In this document: positions 12,930-30,365 of the stretch, in pieces
Position numbering within the stretch: position 1 is the stretch's first letter
How the letters are laid out: each line of letters opens with the position of its first letter
Assembly (NCBI GenBank): GCA_905207905.1
Contig: CAJLNC010000025.1
Coordinates: 1 to 30,365 of the forward strand
DNA length: 30,365 bases
From: an uncultured Lachnospiraceae bacterium
GTDB lineage: Bacteria > Bacillota_A > Clostridia > Lachnospirales > Lachnospiraceae
Direction: 5' to 3'
Position numbers and translations under genes: made by a program
The notes under the pieces: generated by a model
What the model saw: only the letters and a program-made list of their open reading frames with translations
What the model was told of the DNA's origin: nothing
The model's database searches: none

Positions 12930-14216
12930 ATGAAGAAAAGAATGAATGGGACGATTGCACTGTGTATGAGCGCAATAATTACAGCAGGATGTTTTGGCCC
13001 GGCCCTTACAGCGAATGCAGAAAATGCAGACCTCTCCTTTTTTACAGGAAAGGTAGAAACCGTAGAGCTGCTAGATGAGATCATCGAGGAGTTTAATGCT
13101 CAGGAAAACGGGATTACTGTGGAGCAAGAGTATCAGAATGACGCCAGCAATATTATTAAGATTAAATTTGCTTCCGGAGAAGTGCCGGATATTGTGACAA
13201 CCTATGAGCAGCAATATGTAGATCAGGGCAAGTATCTGGATCTGTCTGATATGGACAGCGTTTGGAATCGATTGATTCCTTCCATGAAGGACAGCTGTAC
13301 AGATGTAAACAGCGGAAAGCAGTATCGTATTTGTACCAATATGACTATGGCAGGTTTCTTCTATAATAAAGAGATCTTTGAGGAGCTGGGACTTGAGCCG
13401 GCAGAGACCTGGGAAGAGTTTGTGAAAAATTTGGAGACGATCAAGGCAGAAAAAGAGGGAGTGGATCCCTGGTTTATCTTCGGAAGCGAAGCATGGCACC
13501 TGGGACATCTGATCGAGTTTATTCCTCACGGATATATTAAGGCAAAATACGGAGCCATGGAAACCAAGAAAGCAATGCTGGAAAATGATAAGAGCATCTT
13601 GAACTTTGGTGCAGCAGATGGAGCTATGGCAGTGTTCGCACAAGGGCTGCTGGATCTGCAGGAAAAAGGACTGATCAATGAAGATGTACTCACAGCGACC
13701 AGCGATAACTGCATTGATGCATTTGTATCCGGCGAGACGGCAATGTTCAGTAACGGAATGTGGTGCCTGTCTGGTATCCTGGAGAAGGCTCCGGATATGG
13801 CAGACAAGATCGGATTTGCCCCATATCCGGCTATGATGGAGGACGGAGAACCCATGGTCTTGGTGGCAGAGGACTCCGGTTACAGCATTACCGCTGACTC
13901 CGCACACACAGAAGAAGCCAAGGTATTCTTAGAGTATTTATTCAGCCCTGAAAACCAGAAGCGGTATGCAGAGAGCCTGGGATCTCCCTCAGCTTTCACA
14001 GATGTGGAAGCGCAGTGGGCGCCGGAGGCTGTGGTAGAGGGTGTGAATCAGGCGGTAGAGACTGCGGCAAATATCGGCTATACTAATGAAAAGCCTGCTG
14101 GATTTTCCGGTGATGATGCAGGCCGTATGGTACAGGATCTGCTGGCAGGAACCTACACAGCAGAAGAGTTTGCAGTTGCTTATGAGCAGGCATGGGATGC
14201 AGGATTTACTTCATAA
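12930..14216 (+). CDS. Extracellular solute-binding protein (family 1), isomalto-oligosaccharide ABC transporter
   Basis: 428 residues of the SBP_bac_1 (CUT1) family. It has a signal peptide at the N-terminus with ITAGC at 17-21 (possible lipobox, Cys21) and also ALTANA before Glu31 as an alternative signal-peptidase I site, so anchoring is uncertain. Family features include an EIIEEFNAQENGITVEQEY start, DIVTTYEQQYVDQG, YNKEIFEELGLEPAETWEEF and the C-terminal EAKVFLEYLFSPENQKRYAE. Genes downstream encode two permeases, a GH66 enzyme and an oligo-1,6-glucosidase, so the ligand is probably an alpha-1,6-linked gluco-oligosaccharide; this rests on context. TGGAGG precedes the ATG. The gene diverges from the sensor kinase and is followed by an intercistronic hairpin. 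Confidence 0.93.
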   Translation: MKKRMNGTIALCMSAIITAGCFGPALTANAENADLSFFTGKVETVELLDEIIEEFNAQENGITVEQEYQNDASNIIKIKFASGEVPDIVTTYEQQYVDQGKYLDLSDMDSVWNRLIPSMKDSCTDVNSGKQYRICTNMTMAGFFYNKEIFEELGLEPAETWEEFVKNLETIKAEKEGVDPWFIFGSEAWHLGHLIEFIPHGYIKAKYGAMETKKAMLENDKSILNFGAADGAMAVFAQGLLDLQEKGLINEDVLTATSDNCIDAFVSGETAMFSNGMWCLSGILEKAPDMADKIGFAPYPAMMEDGEPMVLVAEDSGYSITADSAHTEEAKVFLEYLFSPENQKRYAESLGSPSAFTDVEAQWAPEAVVEGVNQAVETAANIGYTNEKPAGFSGDDAGRMVQDLLAGTYTAEEFAVAYEQAWDAGFTS

Positions 14217-16005: not shown

Positions 16006-17637
16006 ATGAGATTCGATATTTTTCCAGTAAAAGGGCAGTTTTGCCCCGGAGATACCGCAGCATTTTATATAGAAAATTCGGGGGAGGCATCCTTGGCAGA
16101 GATCCGAGTGACTGCTTTAGATGGCTCAGTTGTCAAGAAGAGATATCCCCTTTCTCAGGGCCGTCAAAGAGCAGGGCTGAATGAGACGGTTTTTAAGATC
16201 GGTGGATATGGAGTTGAGGCAGATTTTTATCAGGGAGAGGAGCTGTTAGCTTCCTGTCGTACCGCTTTTGAGGTACGGGAGCCGGGAGAAATTATCCGTT
16301 ATGGCTTTCTCAGCGATTTTGCTCAAAAAGATGCAGGCTGCGAAGATGTAGAATGTATGGCAAAAATGCATATTAATACCGTACAATTTTATGACTGGTC
16401 CTGGCATCACGATCACCTGGTTCCCTTGGAGGCGGAGTATACGGATATGATGGGGAAGAAAAATAGCCTGCCGGTGGTGAAGGAGAAGATCGAAGCCTGT
16501 CACAGCCATGGAATGAAAGCTATGGGTTATGGAGCCATTTATGCTGCTTCGAAAGAGTATCAGCGGCAGCATTCCGATGAGAGTCTGTATGACGGAAGCG
16601 GAAGTCCGCTGTGCTTTATTGATACCTTTTATCTGATGAATCCCTCTAGGGAGTGTTCCTGGCACGACCATATTATTGAGCAGTATCAGGCATCGGTAAA
16701 AGAGGTGGGCTTTGACGGGATCCACATGGATACCTACGGAACCCCCAAAACTGCGCTGGACGCTCAGGGAAAAATGGTGTATCTGGAGGAAACCTTCCCG
16801 GATCTGATTGGAGATGTTAAGAAAAAACTTCAGGAGGTGCATCCCTCTCCCATGCTGATTTTTAATAATGTGGGGGGCTGGCCCTATCAGACCACGATGA
16901 CGGCAGATCAGGAGGCAGTGTATATTGAAGTATGGCCACCCAATTATCGGTATCATCATCTGGTACGCCTGATTGAAGATGCTTCCCTTAGCGGGAAAAC
17001 GGTAATCCTGGCGGCTTATCCTGCACCTTTCCGGACGGATACTCCCCAAAGGGCTTTGGAGAGTCAGCTGTTTTTATCCTATGTGATCGCCATGACAGGG
17101 GCCACTCAGTTGTTTTTCGGTGAAGAAAACGCAGTGATCACGCAGGGATACTATGGGGATTATACCAGATTGTCAGAGGAACAGCTGAGCAAAATCCGCG
17201 CTTATCAGGATTTCTTTGTACGGTACGGGGAGATCTTTTATGACAAAACTCTGAAAACAGTTAGCATGACTCATCAGGGTTGGGATAATCCGGAGTATAT
17301 TATGGAGCCAAAAGGCAGCGCAGACGGTGAGCCAGGGACTTTGTGGTATTATATCCGGGAGAACAAAGATAAAAAAGTGATTTCTATTTTAAACTTAAAA
17401 CAGAACGACGATCTCTGGAATGAGGGAAAGCAGACTCCCGAAAAGGAGGAGCAGGTTCATATTCGGATTCAGACCCTAAAAGCTCCAAAGGCAGTATGGT
17501 TTGCCTCTCCTGACCGGGAAGGAGGGGATCTCCAGGTGGCCCAGTATCAGTGGGTGAAGGCGGAACAGGGAATGATGGTTTCCCTGAAAGTGCCGGTATA
17601 CCGGTGCAGCACAGTGGTTTTAGAACTGCAGAAATAG
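16006..17637 (+). CDS. GH66 family glycoside hydrolase (dextranase/cycloisomalto-oligosaccharide-type), intracellular
   Basis: 543 residues of glycoside hydrolase family 66, which acts on alpha-1,6-glucan (dextran) either by endo-hydrolysis or by cyclisation. A beta-sandwich-like N-terminal domain (about 1-95, with FCPGDTAAFYIENSG) precedes a barrel domain. The nucleophile Asp242 in GFDGIHMDTYG and acid/base Glu308 in VYIEVWPP match the known GH66 pair, 66 residues apart compared with 68 in Streptococcus mutans dextranase (from memory). There is no signal peptide, no anchor and no inserted CBM35, so the enzyme is cytosolic and shorter than secreted dextranases. It probably trims imported long isomalto-oligosaccharides for the GH13 enzyme encoded next. 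A cyclising activity cannot be excluded. AAAGGA precedes the ATG. Confidence 0.88.
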   Translation: MRFDIFPVKGQFCPGDTAAFYIENSGEASLAEIRVTALDGSVVKKRYPLSQGRQRAGLNETVFKIGGYGVEADFYQGEELLASCRTAFEVREPGEIIRYGFLSDFAQKDAGCEDVECMAKMHINTVQFYDWSWHHDHLVPLEAEYTDMMGKKNSLPVVKEKIEACHSHGMKAMGYGAIYAASKEYQRQHSDESLYDGSGSPLCFIDTFYLMNPSRECSWHDHIIEQYQASVKEVGFDGIHMDTYGTPKTALDAQGKMVYLEETFPDLIGDVKKKLQEVHPSPMLIFNNVGGWPYQTTMTADQEAVYIEVWPPNYRYHHLVRLIEDASLSGKTVILAAYPAPFRTDTPQRALESQLFLSYVIAMTGATQLFFGEENAVITQGYYGDYTRLSEEQLSKIRAYQDFFVRYGEIFYDKTLKTVSMTHQGWDNPEYIMEPKGSADGEPGTLWYYIRENKDKKVISILNLKQNDDLWNEGKQTPEKEEQVHIRIQTLKAPKAVWFASPDREGGDLQVAQYQWVKAEQGMMVSLKVPVYRCSTVVLELQK

Positions 17638-24347: not shown

Positions 24348-25601
24348 CTACAGCTGAAATTCGTATACATACCCTTCTTCCCCATAATGTTCGTTTCCGG
24401 TCCAGAGGATGGTCCGGTCTGTGAGGTCATAGACTACGCTGTGTACGGTGCAGCCGTTGCTATCGTCGTTGTTCCAGTTCCGGCGCCCTACCTGGGCCAG
24501 CAGTCCCATAGCGTCCTCCTTGTCTGTGAAGATCCCTTCTTTTTTCTGAAGCTGGCTGTGGAGCAGTTCATAGCGGTCAAGCCCGGCCTTCTCCTCATCG
24601 GATTTATAGTAGCCGGGATTTACAATGAAATTGGTAACGCACTGATACTCTTTGGAAGCCATGGCAGGATCGCTGTCGTTGTAGGTGACTACCAGTTTTC
24701 GTTTGCCTCCGTCATTGTCTTTTTTGTCAGTCTCATTGACCCACTCCAGGATGGCGCTCTTCCCAGTGGAATCTGCGATCATATAGTGGTAGGAGGTTCC
24801 GGCGGAATCATGGAGGTCATACTGGGAGATCATTTCCACGGCTTCCTCTACGCTGTCTGCATAATCCAGAACCATGCGAAGCATAGTGGTGGAGGTAAGA
24901 TCCGGTTTGTCGGTGTTCTGATCTGTGGGAACAGTTTCCTCTCCCCCCTGATAAGTCATGTAAATACCGCAGCTTACGCCTGCGTCGTTCATGCCGTCTA
25001 AGGGAGCATAGGTGGCTGCCAGGGCTTTTATCCGATCCATCAGGCTGCTGACACCCTTTTCTTTGTCAATGCCGATAAACTGAAGATCCGCCGTGGAGAC
25101 GGAGGCGTGGCGCCCCTTTCCGGGCTTGGTGAACACGATGCAGGTGTTAGTCTGCTTAAAATCATAATTTCTGGCAAACAGCCGATGGCCTTCCGAGGTA
25201 GCCCCGGTAAAGGAAGAGCAGGCAATGTCGCTCTCGCTGATGGATACGTCGATGAGCCCTTTGGTAATGTGTTTGGTGACAAAATCAATGAGTTCTGCAT
25301 CATTGGAGGCTCCACCCTGAGCCAGGAAATCATCAAAATAGTAGTCCCCGGACACCTTCATCTGGTAGACGGCGCCGTCCTGATGCGCATCGTTGGAGGC
25401 GCTTAGCTGCTTGATGGAAGCAGCGGATAAAATTTCATTGTGCCACAGGCCGAAGATGCCGCCAGCCCCCAGTGCAACCACTGCCAGCAGAGTCAAAAGG
25501 CAGATGGGGAGTATCTTTTTTTTCTTTTTTGAAGCGACGGAACTGTTTTTTGTTTTATTTGCTCCATTCTCATTCGGTTTTTCATTCACATCTTGCTTCA
25601 T
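24348..25601 (-). CDS. Membrane-anchored Ntn hydrolase, choloylglycine/linear amide C-N hydrolase family
   Basis: 417 residues. A Lys/Asn-rich cytoplasmic tail (1-29) is followed by one membrane segment (about 30-52), and the rest lies outside the cell. The probable nucleophile is Cys128 in DIACSSFTGATSEGHRLFARNYDF; Cys followed shortly by a G-x-RNxD motif (Arg144, Asn145, Asp147) is the mark of the bile-salt-hydrolase, penicillin-acylase and C45 acyltransferase families. Other supportive stretches are DGMNDAGVSCGIYMTY, TTMLRMVLDYADSVEEAV, HYMIADSTGKSAILEW and VTNF. In this family the Cys usually becomes N-terminal by cleavage; here about 127 residues precede it, so self-processing would release the enzyme from its anchor. 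The substrate is unknown: an amide, N-acyl amino acid or bile salt. AGGAGG lies 8 nt before the ATG. Confidence 0.8.
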   Translation of the reverse strand: MKQDVNEKPNENGANKTKNSSVASKKKKKILPICLLTLLAVVALGAGGIFGLWHNEILSAASIKQLSASNDAHQDGAVYQMKVSGDYYFDDFLAQGGASNDAELIDFVTKHITKGLIDVSISESDIACSSFTGATSEGHRLFARNYDFKQTNTCIVFTKPGKGRHASVSTADLQFIGIDKEKGVSSLMDRIKALAATYAPLDGMNDAGVSCGIYMTYQGGEETVPTDQNTDKPDLTSTTMLRMVLDYADSVEEAVEMISQYDLHDSAGTSYHYMIADSTGKSAILEWVNETDKKDNDGGKRKLVVTYNDSDPAMASKEYQCVTNFIVNPGYYKSDEEKAGLDRYELLHSQLQKKEGIFTDKEDAMGLLAQVGRRNWNNDDSNGCTVHSVVYDLTDRTILWTGNEHYGEEGYVYEFQL

Positions 25602-26178: not shown

Positions 26179-27051
26179 ATGATGAAAAAATTTGTGAATG
26201 TAATGATGGCTATGGCTTTTACAGCAGCTTGTACCGGTATGACTGCAATGGCAGCAGACTTTGACGCGTCCACAGAGATTTCTGTAATGTCCAGAGAGGA
26301 CGGATCCGGAACCAGAGGCGCTTTTGTAGAATTGTTTGGAATCGAGCAGAAGGATGCAGAGGGAAATAAAGTGGATATGACCACGGAGGAAGCTGCAGTG
26401 ACCAACAGCACTTCTGTTATGATGACTTCCGTAGCAAACGATGAATATGCCATTGGATATATTTCCCTGGGTTCTCTGGATGAAACCATCAAGGCAGTAG
26501 AAATCGACGGTGCAGCCCCCTCTGTGGAGACTGTAAAGGACGGAAGCTATGGCATTGTAAGACCTTTTAACATTGTAACCGGGGCTGAGGTGAGTGCAGC
26601 GGATCAGGATTTTATCAATTTCATCCTCAGCGCTGACGGTCAGGCTGTGGTAAATGAGAGCGGCTACATTGCACTGGATGGAGGAGAGGCATTCACTTCC
26701 GACGGTTCTGAGGGCAAGATTGTGGTAGGCGGTTCCTCTTCCGTATATCCGGTTATGGAAAAACTGGCAGAGGCTTATGCCAAGTTAAACCCCAATGCGG
26801 AGGTGGAAGTCCAGAGTACGGACAGCACCACAGGCGTTACCTCTGCCCTGGACGGCACCTACACCATTGGCATGGCATCCAGAGAGCTGAAGGATACAGA
26901 GACAGAAGCAGGGGCAGTGGCTACAAAGATTGCAGATGACGGTATCGCCGTGATCGTGAACAATGACAACCCCACAGAGGCTCTTACCTCTGAGCAGGTA
27001 CTGGCAGTTTACACTGGGGAAGTAACCACCTGGGAAGAACTGGCTGAGTAA
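26179..27051 (+). CDS. pstS: Phosphate-binding protein PstS, circularly permuted form
   Basis: 290 residues. It captures phosphate for the PstCAB transporter encoded downstream. A signal peptide covers about 1-26 (AMA before Asp28); TAAC at 15-18 could instead be a poor lipobox. Motif order is reversed compared with ordinary PstS. The part that is normally second comes first: SREDGSGTRGAF (38-49), EYAIGYISLGSL (89-100), the DGSYGIVRPFNI stretch (121-132) and FILSADGQAVVNESGYIAL (148-166). The part that is normally first follows: VGGSSSVYPVMEKLAEAY (183-200), STDSTTGV (213-220), GMASRELKD (231-239), GIAVIVNNDNPTEALTSEQV (255-274) and YTGEVTTWEEL. All phosphate-loop elements are present, so it should be functional. 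AGGAGAATAAG precedes the ATG. It is encoded upstream of pstC, with a hairpin between. Confidence 0.92.
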   Translation: MMKKFVNVMMAMAFTAACTGMTAMAADFDASTEISVMSREDGSGTRGAFVELFGIEQKDAEGNKVDMTTEEAAVTNSTSVMMTSVANDEYAIGYISLGSLDETIKAVEIDGAAPSVETVKDGSYGIVRPFNIVTGAEVSAADQDFINFILSADGQAVVNESGYIALDGGEAFTSDGSEGKIVVGGSSSVYPVMEKLAEAYAKLNPNAEVEVQSTDSTTGVTSALDGTYTIGMASRELKDTETEAGAVATKIADDGIAVIVNNDNPTEALTSEQVLAVYTGEVTTWEELAE

Positions 27052-27171
27052 TCCGCAGGAAAGAAACTTGGGATTTCTGGAAGAAACGACAGGAGATCCC
27101 GGAACTGGAAAGTCTGGACGGACGCAGCCGAAGCGGAATGACAAGGGCTGCAATTCCAGAACATCAGATGG

Positions 27172-27230
27172 AGCGCTGCAAAACAAGAAGGCAGGAAACC
27201 GACAGGCTTCTTCCTTTTGCAGCGCTTTCT
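27172..27230 (+). promoter_or_regulatory. Intercistronic stem-loop between pstS and pstC
   Basis: AGCGCTGCAAAA (27172-27183) and TTTTGCAGCGCT (27215-27226) are perfect inverted repeats, extended inside by AGAAG (27186-27190) and CTTCT (27207-27211). TTCTCTT after the stem is a poor U-tract, so partial termination or mRNA protection is likely. The 200-bp gap shows no other gene. Confidence 0.75.
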
Positions 27231-27251
27231 CTTGGGAGGAAATGGAAGTAA

Positions 27252-28124
27252 ATGGCAGTTATAGATTTCTGGAAAAAATATCGGGAAAACATTATGAAAT
27301 ATGTTTTTTTGGCAGCAGCCTGCGTATCCATTCTGGCAGTGGCGCTGATTTGTATTTTCCTGTTTGGAAATGGAGTTCCGGCAATTATGGAAATCGGCCC
27401 GGTGAAATTTCTTTTTGGATTAAAATGGAAGCCGGGAAACAACATCTATGGGATCTTTCCCATGATCGTGGGAAGTATTTACGTCACTGCCGGGGCAATT
27501 CTGGTGGGAGTGCCCATTGGCTTCCTCACTGCAGTTTTTCTGGCAAAGTTTTGTCCGGAAAAGCTCTATAAGATCTTTAAGCCTATGGTGGATCTGCTGG
27601 CAGGCATTCCCTCTGTTGTGTACGGCTTTTTTGGGATTGTGATCATTGTCCCCTTTGTCCGGGACTGCATCGGAGGCAAGGGAAACAGCATTCTGACTGC
27701 ATCGCTCCTTCTGGGTATGATGATTCTGCCTACCATTATCAGTGTGTCCGAAGCAGCCATTCGGGCAGTGCCGGAGAGCTACTATGAGGGTTCCCTGGCC
27801 TTGGGAGCCACTCATGAGCGCAGTGTTTTTTCTGCCATGCTTCCGGCTGCAAAATCCGGCATTATGGCCGGGGTGATTCTGGGCGTGGGCCGGGCCATTG
27901 GGGAGACTATGGCAGTTATTATGGTGGCGGGCAACCAGCCCAGGCTTCCGGACAGCATTTTAAAGGGAGTCCGCACTTTGACTGCCAACATTGTGATGGA
28001 GATGGGATATGCCACAGACCTTCACCGGGAAGCGCTGATTGCCACCGGCGTGGTGCTGTTTGTATTTATTCTTTTGATTAATCTGCTGTTTTCCATTGTG
28101 AAAATGCGCGGGGAAAGGGCGTAG
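27252..28124 (+). CDS. pstC: Phosphate ABC transporter permease PstC
   Basis: 290 residues with about six membrane segments. PstC features are the GGxxxF-type start region, the loop GIFPMIVGSIYVTAGAILVGVPIGFLTAVFLA, GIPSVVYGFFG, and the conserved ATPase-contact loop with EGSLALGATHERSVFSAMLPAAKSGI followed by GRAIGETMAVIMVAGN. It forms the phosphate channel with PstA. ATG 27252 follows GGGAGGAAATGGAAG; the spacing to GGGAGG is a little long, but no other in-frame start fits. pstA starts 3 bp after its stop. Confidence 0.95.
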   Translation: MAVIDFWKKYRENIMKYVFLAAACVSILAVALICIFLFGNGVPAIMEIGPVKFLFGLKWKPGNNIYGIFPMIVGSIYVTAGAILVGVPIGFLTAVFLAKFCPEKLYKIFKPMVDLLAGIPSVVYGFFGIVIIVPFVRDCIGGKGNSILTASLLLGMMILPTIISVSEAAIRAVPESYYEGSLALGATHERSVFSAMLPAAKSGIMAGVILGVGRAIGETMAVIMVAGNQPRLPDSILKGVRTLTANIVMEMGYATDLHREALIATGVVLFVFILLINLLFSIVKMRGERA

Positions 28125-28127
28125 ACT

Positions 28128-29072
28128 ATGAACGGAAATGCAACCACTGCAATCAATGTGAATCTTACGCCGGACATTCGTCCGGAGAGGGATCCGGCAG
28201 AAAACATTGTGGGAATCAATCGGGTAAGTTTTCGGGAACGGCTGAAATCCTACAAGCGTACTCCGGGTTCTCTGGTGCTTTTAATACTGGTATCTTTATC
28301 GGCTCTGATTACGGCAGCGGTACTGGTATTCCTGGTGGGCTACATCTTGATAAAAGGGATTCCTTATCTGACGCCGGATCTGTTTGCCTGGGAGTATACC
28401 TCTGATAATTGTTCGGTAGTCCCGTCTATCATCAATACCGTATTGATGGCCTTCCTGGCTCTGATCATTGCGGTACCCTTTGGCATTTTTGCAGCTGTGT
28501 ATCTGGTGGAGTATGCCAACAAGGGAAATAAGCTGGTAAAGGTGATTCGGATCACCGCAGAAACCCTTACCGGGATTCCATCCATTGTGTACGGTCTGTT
28601 TGGTATGTTATTTTTCGTATCTGCTCTTCACTGGGGCTTCTCCCTGCTGGCAGGATCCTTTACCCTGTCCATTATGATCCTGCCCACTATTTTGAGGACT
28701 ACGGAGGAGGCGCTGATGTCTGTGCCGGATTCTTTTCGGGAGGGCAGTTTCGGATTGGGAGCCGGAAAGCTGCGGACGGTGTTTCGTATTGTGCTTCCCT
28801 CCGCAGTTCCCGGGATCCTCTCCGGTGTGATCCTGGCCATCGGCAGGATCGTGGGGGAGACGGCCGCTCTGATTTATACGGCAGGATCTGTGGCAAAGGT
28901 ACCGGAAAATGTGTTTTCCTCCACCAGAACTCTGGCCGTACATATGTATAATTTGTCCAATGAAGGGCTGCATGTGAATCAGGCTTACGCCACAGCCGTG
29001 GTGCTGCTGGCCGTGGTGATTCTCATTAACTGGCTTTCCGCCAAACTGGCCAAAAAGGTGGCAAAGGTATAA
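28128..29072 (+). CDS. pstA: Phosphate ABC transporter permease PstA
   Basis: 314 residues with six membrane segments after an unusually long hydrophilic N-terminus (about 48 residues). Hallmarks: [79 protein letters not shown] and [15 protein letters not shown]. It pairs with PstC; the gene begins 3 bp after the pstC stop, inferring translational coupling. GGGGAAAGGG inside the end of pstC is the ribosome site. Confidence 0.95.
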
Positions 29073-29176
29073 GGGCAGCTAAAGACAGAAGCGTCCAATA
29101 CCAGAAAAATGGGGCTGCGGTATGGAAAAGGCAGCCAAAGACAGAAGTGCAAAAAGCTAGAGGAAAAGGATTGAAT

Positions 29177-29926
29177 ATGAGCAAAATATCTATCAAAAAT
29201 TTAGATTTGTATTACGGAAGCTTCCATGCCTTAAAAAGTGTGAATATGGAGATTCCGGAGAAAAAAATAACTGCCTTTATCGGCCCTTCCGGCTGTGGAA
29301 AATCCACCCTGTTAAAATCGCTGAACCGGATGAACGATCTGGTGGAGGGCTGCAAGATCACCGGCCAGGTGCTTTTAGACGGTCGGGATATTTATCGGGA
29401 TATGGATGTGAATCTGCTGCGGAAGCGGGTGGGCATGGTATTTCAGAAGCCCAATCCCTTTCCAATGAGTGTGTATGACAATGTTGCCTATGGGCCAAGA
29501 ACCCATGGGGTTCGTTCTAAAGCGAAGCTGGATGAGATCGTGGAGAAATCTCTGAGGGATGCGGCAATCTGGGAAGAATTAAAGGACAGGCTGAAAAAGA
29601 GCGCCCTGGGACTTTCCGGCGGACAGCAGCAGAGACTTTGCATCGCAAGGGCTCTGGCCGTACAACCGGAGGTGCTTTTAATGGACGAGCCTACCTCCGC
29701 CCTGGATCCCATCTCCACTTCCAAGATCGAAGACCTGGCACTGGAGCTGAAAAAGCAGTATACCATAGTGATGGTGACTCACAATATGCAGCAGGCAGTG
29801 CGAATCTCCGATGAGACGGTATTTTTCCTGCTGGGAGAAGTGGTGGAATCCGGAAATACGGAGGAACTGTTCTCCATGCCAAAGGACAAGCGGACAGAAG
29901 ATTATATTACAGGGAGGTTTGGCTGA
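29177..29926 (+). CDS. pstB: Phosphate ABC transporter ATP-binding protein PstB
   Basis: 249 residues from ATG 29177, which follows AAAGGATTGAAT; a longer frame from 29147 is not supported. Walker [10 protein letters not shown] (36-44), Q-loop [19 protein letters not shown] (88-106), signature [15 protein letters not shown] (146-160), Walker [14 protein letters not shown] and switch His in [14 protein letters not shown]. The PNPFPMS motif after the Q-loop is specific to PstB. It powers phosphate import with PstC and PstA. The stop is 1 bp before the phoU start. Confidence 0.97.
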
Positions 29927-29927
29927 T

Positions 29928-30365
29928 ATGCGCAACCGGTTTGACCAGCAGCTGGAGGAGCTGAATAAAGAAATCATTAATATGGGATCCATGATCGAAC
30001 AGTCTATAGAGACCGCTGTGGAAGCTTTGATCCATCAGGATGTAAAAAAGGCCAGGAAGGCGATGGACAGCGATGACGCTATTGACCGTCAGGAAAAGCA
30101 GATAGAGAATCTCTGTCTGAGAATGCTGCTGCAGCAGCAGCCGGTGGCAAAGGATCTGCGGGTGATCTCCGCAGCGCTGAAAATGATTACGGATATGGAG
30201 AGAATCGGGGATCACGCGGTGGATATCTCAGAGCTGGCCATTATTATGGCAGGACAGCCTTATATGAAAAAGCTGGAGCACATTGACCAGATGGCAAAGG
30301 AGACCATGATCATGCTCATCAGCAGCCTGGAAGCCTATGTGAACAAGAATCAGGAGCAGGCTAGG
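29928..30365 (+). CDS. phoU: Phosphate transport regulator PhoU, 3' end beyond window
   Basis: The first 146 residues of PhoU; the gene runs off the right edge. Helical repeat hallmarks are present: MRNRFDQQLEELNKEIINMGSM, DSDDAIDRQEKQIENLCLRMLLQQQPVAKDLRVISAALKMITDMERIGDHAVDISELA, which carry the E-x-x-x-D metal ligands of the first repeat. PhoU restrains PstCAB and PhoR-type kinase signalling when phosphate is plentiful. GGGAGG, about 10 nt upstream in the pstB end, is the ribosome site. The second repeat is only begun in the window. Confidence 0.97.
   Translation, partial: MRNRFDQQLEELNKEIINMGSMIEQSIETAVEALIHQDVKKARKAMDSDDAIDRQEKQIENLCLRMLLQQQPVAKDLRVISAALKMITDMERIGDHAVDISELAIIMAGQPYMKKLEHIDQMAKETMIMLISSLEAYVNKNQEQAR

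Follow-up and report, generated by a model that had tools for sequence, protein, structure and literature searches.

A circularly permuted PstS encoded in the pst operon of an uncultured Lachnospiraceae bacterium

The pstS gene and the order of its halves

We analyzed a stretch of 30,365 nucleotides from an uncultured Lachnospiraceae bacterium (the window), which ends in a pst operon predicted to encode a Pst phosphate ATP-binding cassette (ABC) importer. The first gene of this operon, pstS (26179..27051, + strand, as are all parts and operon genes below), is an open reading frame (ORF) with an ATG start that encodes 290 residues and was identified by profile and PDB sequence matches. Its product starts with a signal peptide (residues ~1-26; 26179..26256), recognized from the sequence and a regular-expression scan and probably cleaved between TAMA and AD. 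This is followed by what is the second part of canonical PstS proteins (residues 33-166; 26275..26676), which includes the SREDGSGTR phosphate loop and matches positions 162-294 of TIGR02136, the NCBIfam PstS model, as well as residues 152-273 of the structure 4gd5. A linker (residues 167-178; 26677..26712), delimited by the half-model match positions, then connects the original C-terminus with the original N-terminus, and the canonical first part with its GGSSSVYP motif comes last (residues 179-290; 26713..27048; TIGR02136 40-156; 4gd5 34-146). An earlier note, made from the sequence alone, had proposed such a swap and located an SREDGSGTR-type motif at residues 38-49, GYIAL at 162-166, and GGSSSVYP at 184-191. 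The translation of the ORF has all three at these positions, the first of them as SREDGSGTRGAF. YTGEVTTWEEL, which the note gave as the end of the protein, is indeed present near the C-terminus, but the chain runs two residues further, as its C-terminal end is YTGEVTTWEELAE and the new C-terminus falls after TTWEELAE.

The window protein scored 117 bits with PF12849 (PBP_like_2, Pfam), over the gathering cut-off of 27. TIGR02136 matched the natural protein in two stretches in reverse order, the better of which aligned residues 180-289 with model positions 40-156, and the whole-protein score in natural order was 185.8 bits, below the curated cut-off of 206.6. Searched separately, the N-type piece matched model positions 40-156 (107.6 bits, 6.5e-31) and the C-type piece matched 162-294 (91.4 bits, 5.6e-26), while the rotated protein yielded a single stretch from 40 to 294 with 203.1 bits. 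The protein has one copy of each half and neither is missing. Among PDB sequences, the natural protein was collinear with 4h1x over residues 29-288 (5.2e-61) and matched 4gd5, 4q8r, and 1twy in two swapped stretches each; after rotation, there was a single matching stretch for each of 4q8r, 4gd5, and 1twy but two for 4h1x. The control P0240, a canonical PstS found with a PstS from a Blautia-family genome, likewise gave one matching stretch with 4gd5 but two with 4h1x. Because rotation merges two out-of-order PstS matches into one, both for the profile and for the structures, and splits the match to 4h1x, we conclude that the 290-residue protein is a true circular permutation of PstS. The clean swap of halves proposed in the earlier note was therefore correct, as the half matches are complementary and collinear with PstS once rotated.

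Structure prediction, which the earlier note had suggested, gave a confident model of the window PstS (predicted local distance difference test, pLDDT, 90.2) that matches 4h1x along the whole swapped chain, with a root-mean-square deviation (rmsd) of 1.5 Å over 256 residues and 45-46% identity. 4h1x is the PDB entry for Streptococcus pneumoniae PstS 2 (SP_2084), released in 2012, and because it fits the predicted model this closely, the permuted PstS fold is already solved. Canonical PstS structures covered one half only in VIA-align, a sequential comparison that cannot itself show a swap. The predicted model of the canonical control was too poor for use (pLDDT 58.1), and the P0240 sequence control was used instead. 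Judging by the model, the swapped pieces seem to be halves of the sequence rather than the two lobes, with the cut lying inside one lobe.

The canonical PstS proteins of Clostridium perfringens (4gd5/4q8r) and Vibrio cholerae (1twy) are homologous to the window protein over both parts and share its loop motifs, but their parts stand in the opposite order and become collinear with it after rotation only. 4h1x shares the swapped order along its whole chain, although S. pneumoniae also has a canonical-order PstS1 (4exl), whereas 24 of 28 chosen genomes with permuted loci lack a clear canonical PstS. We take PstS to be of another class than TpMglB-2, a protein of Treponema pallidum, and the cut point differs as well. 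TpMglB-2, which binds glucose and is assigned by its authors to Type I/Cluster B, is described as an ABC substrate-binding protein with a natural circular permutation (PMC4990184). The earlier note knew of no description of the PstS permutation, and indeed we found no published account of it among the matches listed from titles and abstracts of the openly licensed PMC literature; 4H1X was mentioned in no paper of that literature searched, and the main text of PMC4913102, a study of pneumococcal phosphate uptake, nowhere contains 'permut'. However, with a permuted structure available from the PDB since 2012, part of the novelty falls. The fold itself was thus already known, and what we add is its survey across genomes, together with its probable single origin and its near-exclusion from genomes with canonical PstS.

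The operon and its relatives

Downstream of pstS in the window are ORFs that we take to be pstC (27252..28124) and pstA (28128..29072), judging by sequence type and operon order, and, by names that we likewise assume, the ATPase gene pstB (29177..29926, with an internal Met of the ORF 29147-29926 taken as its start) and phoU (29928..30365, with the start chosen inside the ORF 29811-30365), which is cut by the window end. The gap between pstS and pstC contains a strong hairpin (AGCGCTGCAAAA/TTTTGCAGCGCT; 27170..27230), the minimum free energy being -70.6 kcal/mol for 27052-27251 (z -4.19). The hairpin was not listed as a terminator by the terminator scan; it perhaps limits read-through, with the receptor then exceeding the permease.

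With the window pstC and pstA as queries, we examined related loci, taking the best 80 of at least 552 confirmed relatives. At all 80, a PstS with its halves in C-N order is followed by PstC no more than 600 bases away and then by PstA, while pstB was present at 74 and phoU at 63. The six loci without pstB end soon after pstA, which does not hold for several of the loci that lack phoU. None of the 80 loci contained a canonical-order pstS frame, and no second PstS piece was found among window frames of at least 60 residues. Four loci (L191, L056, L016, and L204) have two permuted pstS genes within or close to one operon. The gap between the half-model matches was 7-19 residues at the permuted loci examined, most often 9. 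The earlier note placed the gene upstream of pstCAB-phoU, as is found here, and called it the working phosphate receptor. That role is suggested by operon position, because the gene precedes pstC and pstA both in the window and at all 80 loci.

Distribution and origin of the permuted form

Judging by record titles, the 80 loci include ones from Lachnospiraceae, Oscillospiraceae, Streptococcus, Eggerthellaceae, Treponema, and Desulfovibrionaceae; the expectation that related Lachnospiraceae would carry similar proteins was right but too narrow. We then used the window protein as a query (E <= 1e-35) in groups named after a centre genome, which is itself counted. Matches were found in 40 of 196 genomes of Clostridia (39 of 41 rows covering both halves and two being short), 12 of 79 of Coriobacteriia, 5 of 120 of Spirochaetota, 2 of 151 of Bacilli, and 1 of 118 in the phylum of a Desulfovibrionaceae genome, that one being the centre genome. 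The permuted PstS is therefore common in Clostridia but occurs patchily in Actinomycetota, Spirochaetota, Desulfovibrionaceae, and Streptococcus, which suggests horizontal transfer.

Among the genomes examined, few contain both forms. In the 28 genomes chosen from permuted loci and searched with TIGR02136, the permuted protein was the only clear PstS in 24. Ten of the first 14 had the permuted form only and four (three Streptococcus and a Thermoclostridium) also had a canonical one; none of the second 14 had a clear canonical PstS, although two of them each gave one extra, weak match (of 20.8 and 18.8 bits). A survey for both motif orders, as the earlier note had proposed, was run in the family of a Blautia (Lachnospiraceae by record title), where both were present and near-exclusive by genome: with TIGR02136 matches read by eye, 16 of 60 genomes had the permuted pattern, 22 had a canonical PstS over the cut-off, and none had both. 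Searching 299 genomes of this family with P0071, which contains both orders, the 150 matches listed comprised 83 permuted ones from 79 genomes and 67 canonical ones from 66, with no genome shared, compared to 17.4 expected under independence, an assumption that kinship among the genomes does not satisfy. It should be noted that 24 matching genomes and the weaker matches fall outside these 150, among them the second, canonical-order gene of one genome. In Streptococcus genomes, both kinds coexist.

For the trees, we used 49 permuted rows, hand-chosen out of 130 distinct permuted frames, and 40 canonical operons picked from the phylum survey among the 150 matches listed. These 40 remained of 43 loci after removal of L173, L178, and L186, which lack PstC or a two-part PstS; L167, also without PstC, had been excluded earlier. 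A more careful tree drops seven rows: five with long branches, L185, which is gappy, and L112, which duplicates L207. In the tree of PstC plus PstA, the permuted and canonical kinds lie on opposite sides of one branch (Shimodaira-Hasegawa-like approximate likelihood ratio test, SH-aLRT, 100; 99 after dropping the seven rows). The PstS tree in common order needs one change, with support of 67 in the quick and 94/83 in the careful version, and 96% of 200 PstS bootstrap trees with the seven rows dropped also need one. The C-part tree needs one change (support 93) and the N-part tree two, without support. A single step separates permuted from canonical operons in the trees of PstC plus PstA, so the permutation probably had one origin and has since remained with one lineage of transporters; a tandem duplication of pstS followed by loss of the outer halves would be the likely route. 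Separate origins of the two halves were also considered and rejected, given the unsupported two changes of the N-part and the one change of the C-part.

Among 239 proteins examined, one of them the window's, nine have three halves (six C-N-C and three N-C-N: P0060, P0064, P0071, P0088, P0122, P0144, P0213, P0215, and P0216), each from one contig. L209 (G1063:C28:2500-6000) has a 467-residue canonical PstS frame in which an inner stretch is exactly repeated, by recent duplication or assembly error.

Function, docking, and the weighing of alternatives

We consider it about 90% probable that the permuted PstS is the substrate-binding protein of the Pst phosphate ABC importer, with its chain circularly permuted, most likely once. 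Residues R39, G42-R46, S187, S188, S216, S234, and R235 were invariant in 40 of 40 permuted sequences, consistent with the earlier note's claim that the binding elements are retained; we assume that these motif residues correspond to the phosphate contacts of Escherichia coli PstS. A short linker joins the old N- and C-termini, and the new termini separate the helix of TxEQV..YTGxxTTW from the strand preceding SREDGSGTR. In the mechanism that we propose, phosphate would be bound in the usual cleft and passed to PstC-PstA, with PstB driving and PhoU regulating transport. Because the cut appears to fall within a single lobe, permutation would turn the split lobe of canonical PstS into a continuous one and would split the other, and the exported N-terminus, which has a lipid anchor in most relatives by regular expression, would leave from the opposite lobe.

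The alternatives concern both what the gene is and how it arose. A gene that is broken, or that consists of two tandem partial copies lacking one half, would explain why the profile matches fall in two stretches, but we give this next to no chance, as the two matches (model 162-294 and 40-156) complement each other with one copy each, the order is identical at 80 of 80 loci, a solved homologue exists in 4h1x, and the rotation test speaks against it. Indeed, neither a normal topology nor tandem copies lacking a half were found, as 4h1x and the model match the whole swapped chain. It is very unlikely that the protein is a PstS-like receptor, in a Pst-like operon, for an oxyanion other than phosphate. 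Phosphate as the ligand is predicted from sequence, and the cleft motif is D-S-T-T-G here compared to G-S-G-A-G in canonical Lachnospiraceae relatives, but the residues of the SREDGSGTR-type and SR-L motifs are invariant in 40 of 40 sequences, the context is a pst operon, and the permuted protein is the sole clear PstS in 24 of the 28 chosen genomes. Pneumococcal Pst2 has also been implicated in inorganic phosphate (Pi) uptake; in the available part of PMC4913102, joint deletion of pst1 and pst2 in unencapsulated S. pneumoniae made Pi uptake ~50% lower at 1 mM, which the authors read as implicating Pst1 and Pst2.

More than one origin of the permutation is very unlikely. The two changes of the N-part tree and the support of just 67 for full PstS in the quick tree would favor it, whereas PstC plus PstA (support 100), the C-part (93), and 96% of the 200 PstS bootstrap trees each call for one change, and the linker length is almost constant. 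It is also unlikely, if somewhat less so, that the C-N-C and N-C-N proteins from metagenomes (415-443 residues) are living intermediates. Duplication models do predict three-half forms, and these sequences differ among themselves, but each comes from a single contig and source, their joins lie at conserved motifs by eye, none of the 150 matches listed from the 299 genomes has a three-half span, and no canonical-order pstS frame occurs at the 80 loci. Moreover, P0071, P0122, and P0161 are 100% identical over their first 252 residues and then diverge, P0161 into a tRNA-synthetase-type domain, a pattern expected of branching assemblies.

Several observations weigh against a phosphate importer receptor permuted once. 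Phosphate binding and transport by the window protein are predictions, and both its natural and rotated TIGR02136 scores (185.8 and 203.1) lie below the curated PstS cut-off of 206.6. The PstS trees are less firm on one origin than those of the transporter (67 quick, 94/83 careful, and two changes for the N-part alone); the permuted rows were gathered by likeness to the window protein, so independent permutations could be missed, and the pneumococcal operon is absent from the trees. 4h1x is tied to the pneumococcal PstS2 of the uptake study by name only, and the available part of that study reports no drop in uptake at 1 mM Pi in single pst1 or pst2 mutants and, at 200 µM after Pi limitation, optimal uptake that needed Pst1 and not Pst2 (PMC4913102). 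Lastly, G052 of the Blautia family has a permuted operon together with a canonical-order PstS (156.4 bits, under the cut-off, in a frame of 206 residues). The latter (L166, G052:C12) has its own PstC, PstA, and PstB, with PstC plus PstA on a long branch with L165, and its operon may serve another substrate.

All five positions in PstA that mark permuted operons in alignment comparison (L85, F86, Y90, N94, and S96; 28380..28415) lie within twelve residues, and three of nine such positions in PstC lie in GNQPRLPDSILKGVRTLTANI, the remaining six being elsewhere. Both stretches are probably extracytoplasmic loops, and the clustering may therefore reflect co-adaptation of the dock or merely shared ancestry. 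A more tentative reading, which we doubt more than we believe, is that one permutation moved the N-terminal tether between lobes and that receptor and transporter co-adapted, the PstA stretch with the five positions probably facing the receptor. Exchange of parts between the permuted and canonical Pst systems would then have ceased, and outside Streptococcus few genomes would carry both. The two kinds of receptor, paired with separate transporter lineages, offer a natural test of the roles of chain order and tether position in docking. A phosphate receptor that is common in Clostridia scores below the cut-off of the NCBI PstS model owing to its swapped halves, so that a pst operon can appear to be receptor-less in a genome. 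The NCBI names differ as well: the four permuted homologues listed with such a name (P0055, P0081, P0183, and P0229) are called substrate-binding domain-containing protein, whereas the four canonical ones so listed (P0278, P0292, P0302, and P0321) are phosphate ABC transporter substrate-binding proteins, one of them as a PstS family protein.

The window PstS itself has no clear lipobox by the regular-expression scan, just a weak TAAC. By the same scan, a lipobox was absent from 24 of the 130 distinct permuted frames, including that of the window and three from Blautia (L020, L027, and L028); the 24 also include some diderms, one fragment (L030), and likely misses of the expression (L016 and L190). 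A monoderm with an untethered receptor would be odd. Elsewhere in the window, a choloylglycine hydrolase family protein (PF02275) is encoded at 24348-25601 on the opposite (-) strand adjoining the pst operon, and an extracellular solute-binding protein (PF01547) and a glycosyl hydrolase family 66 protein are encoded at 12930-14216 and 16006-17637 (+), respectively.
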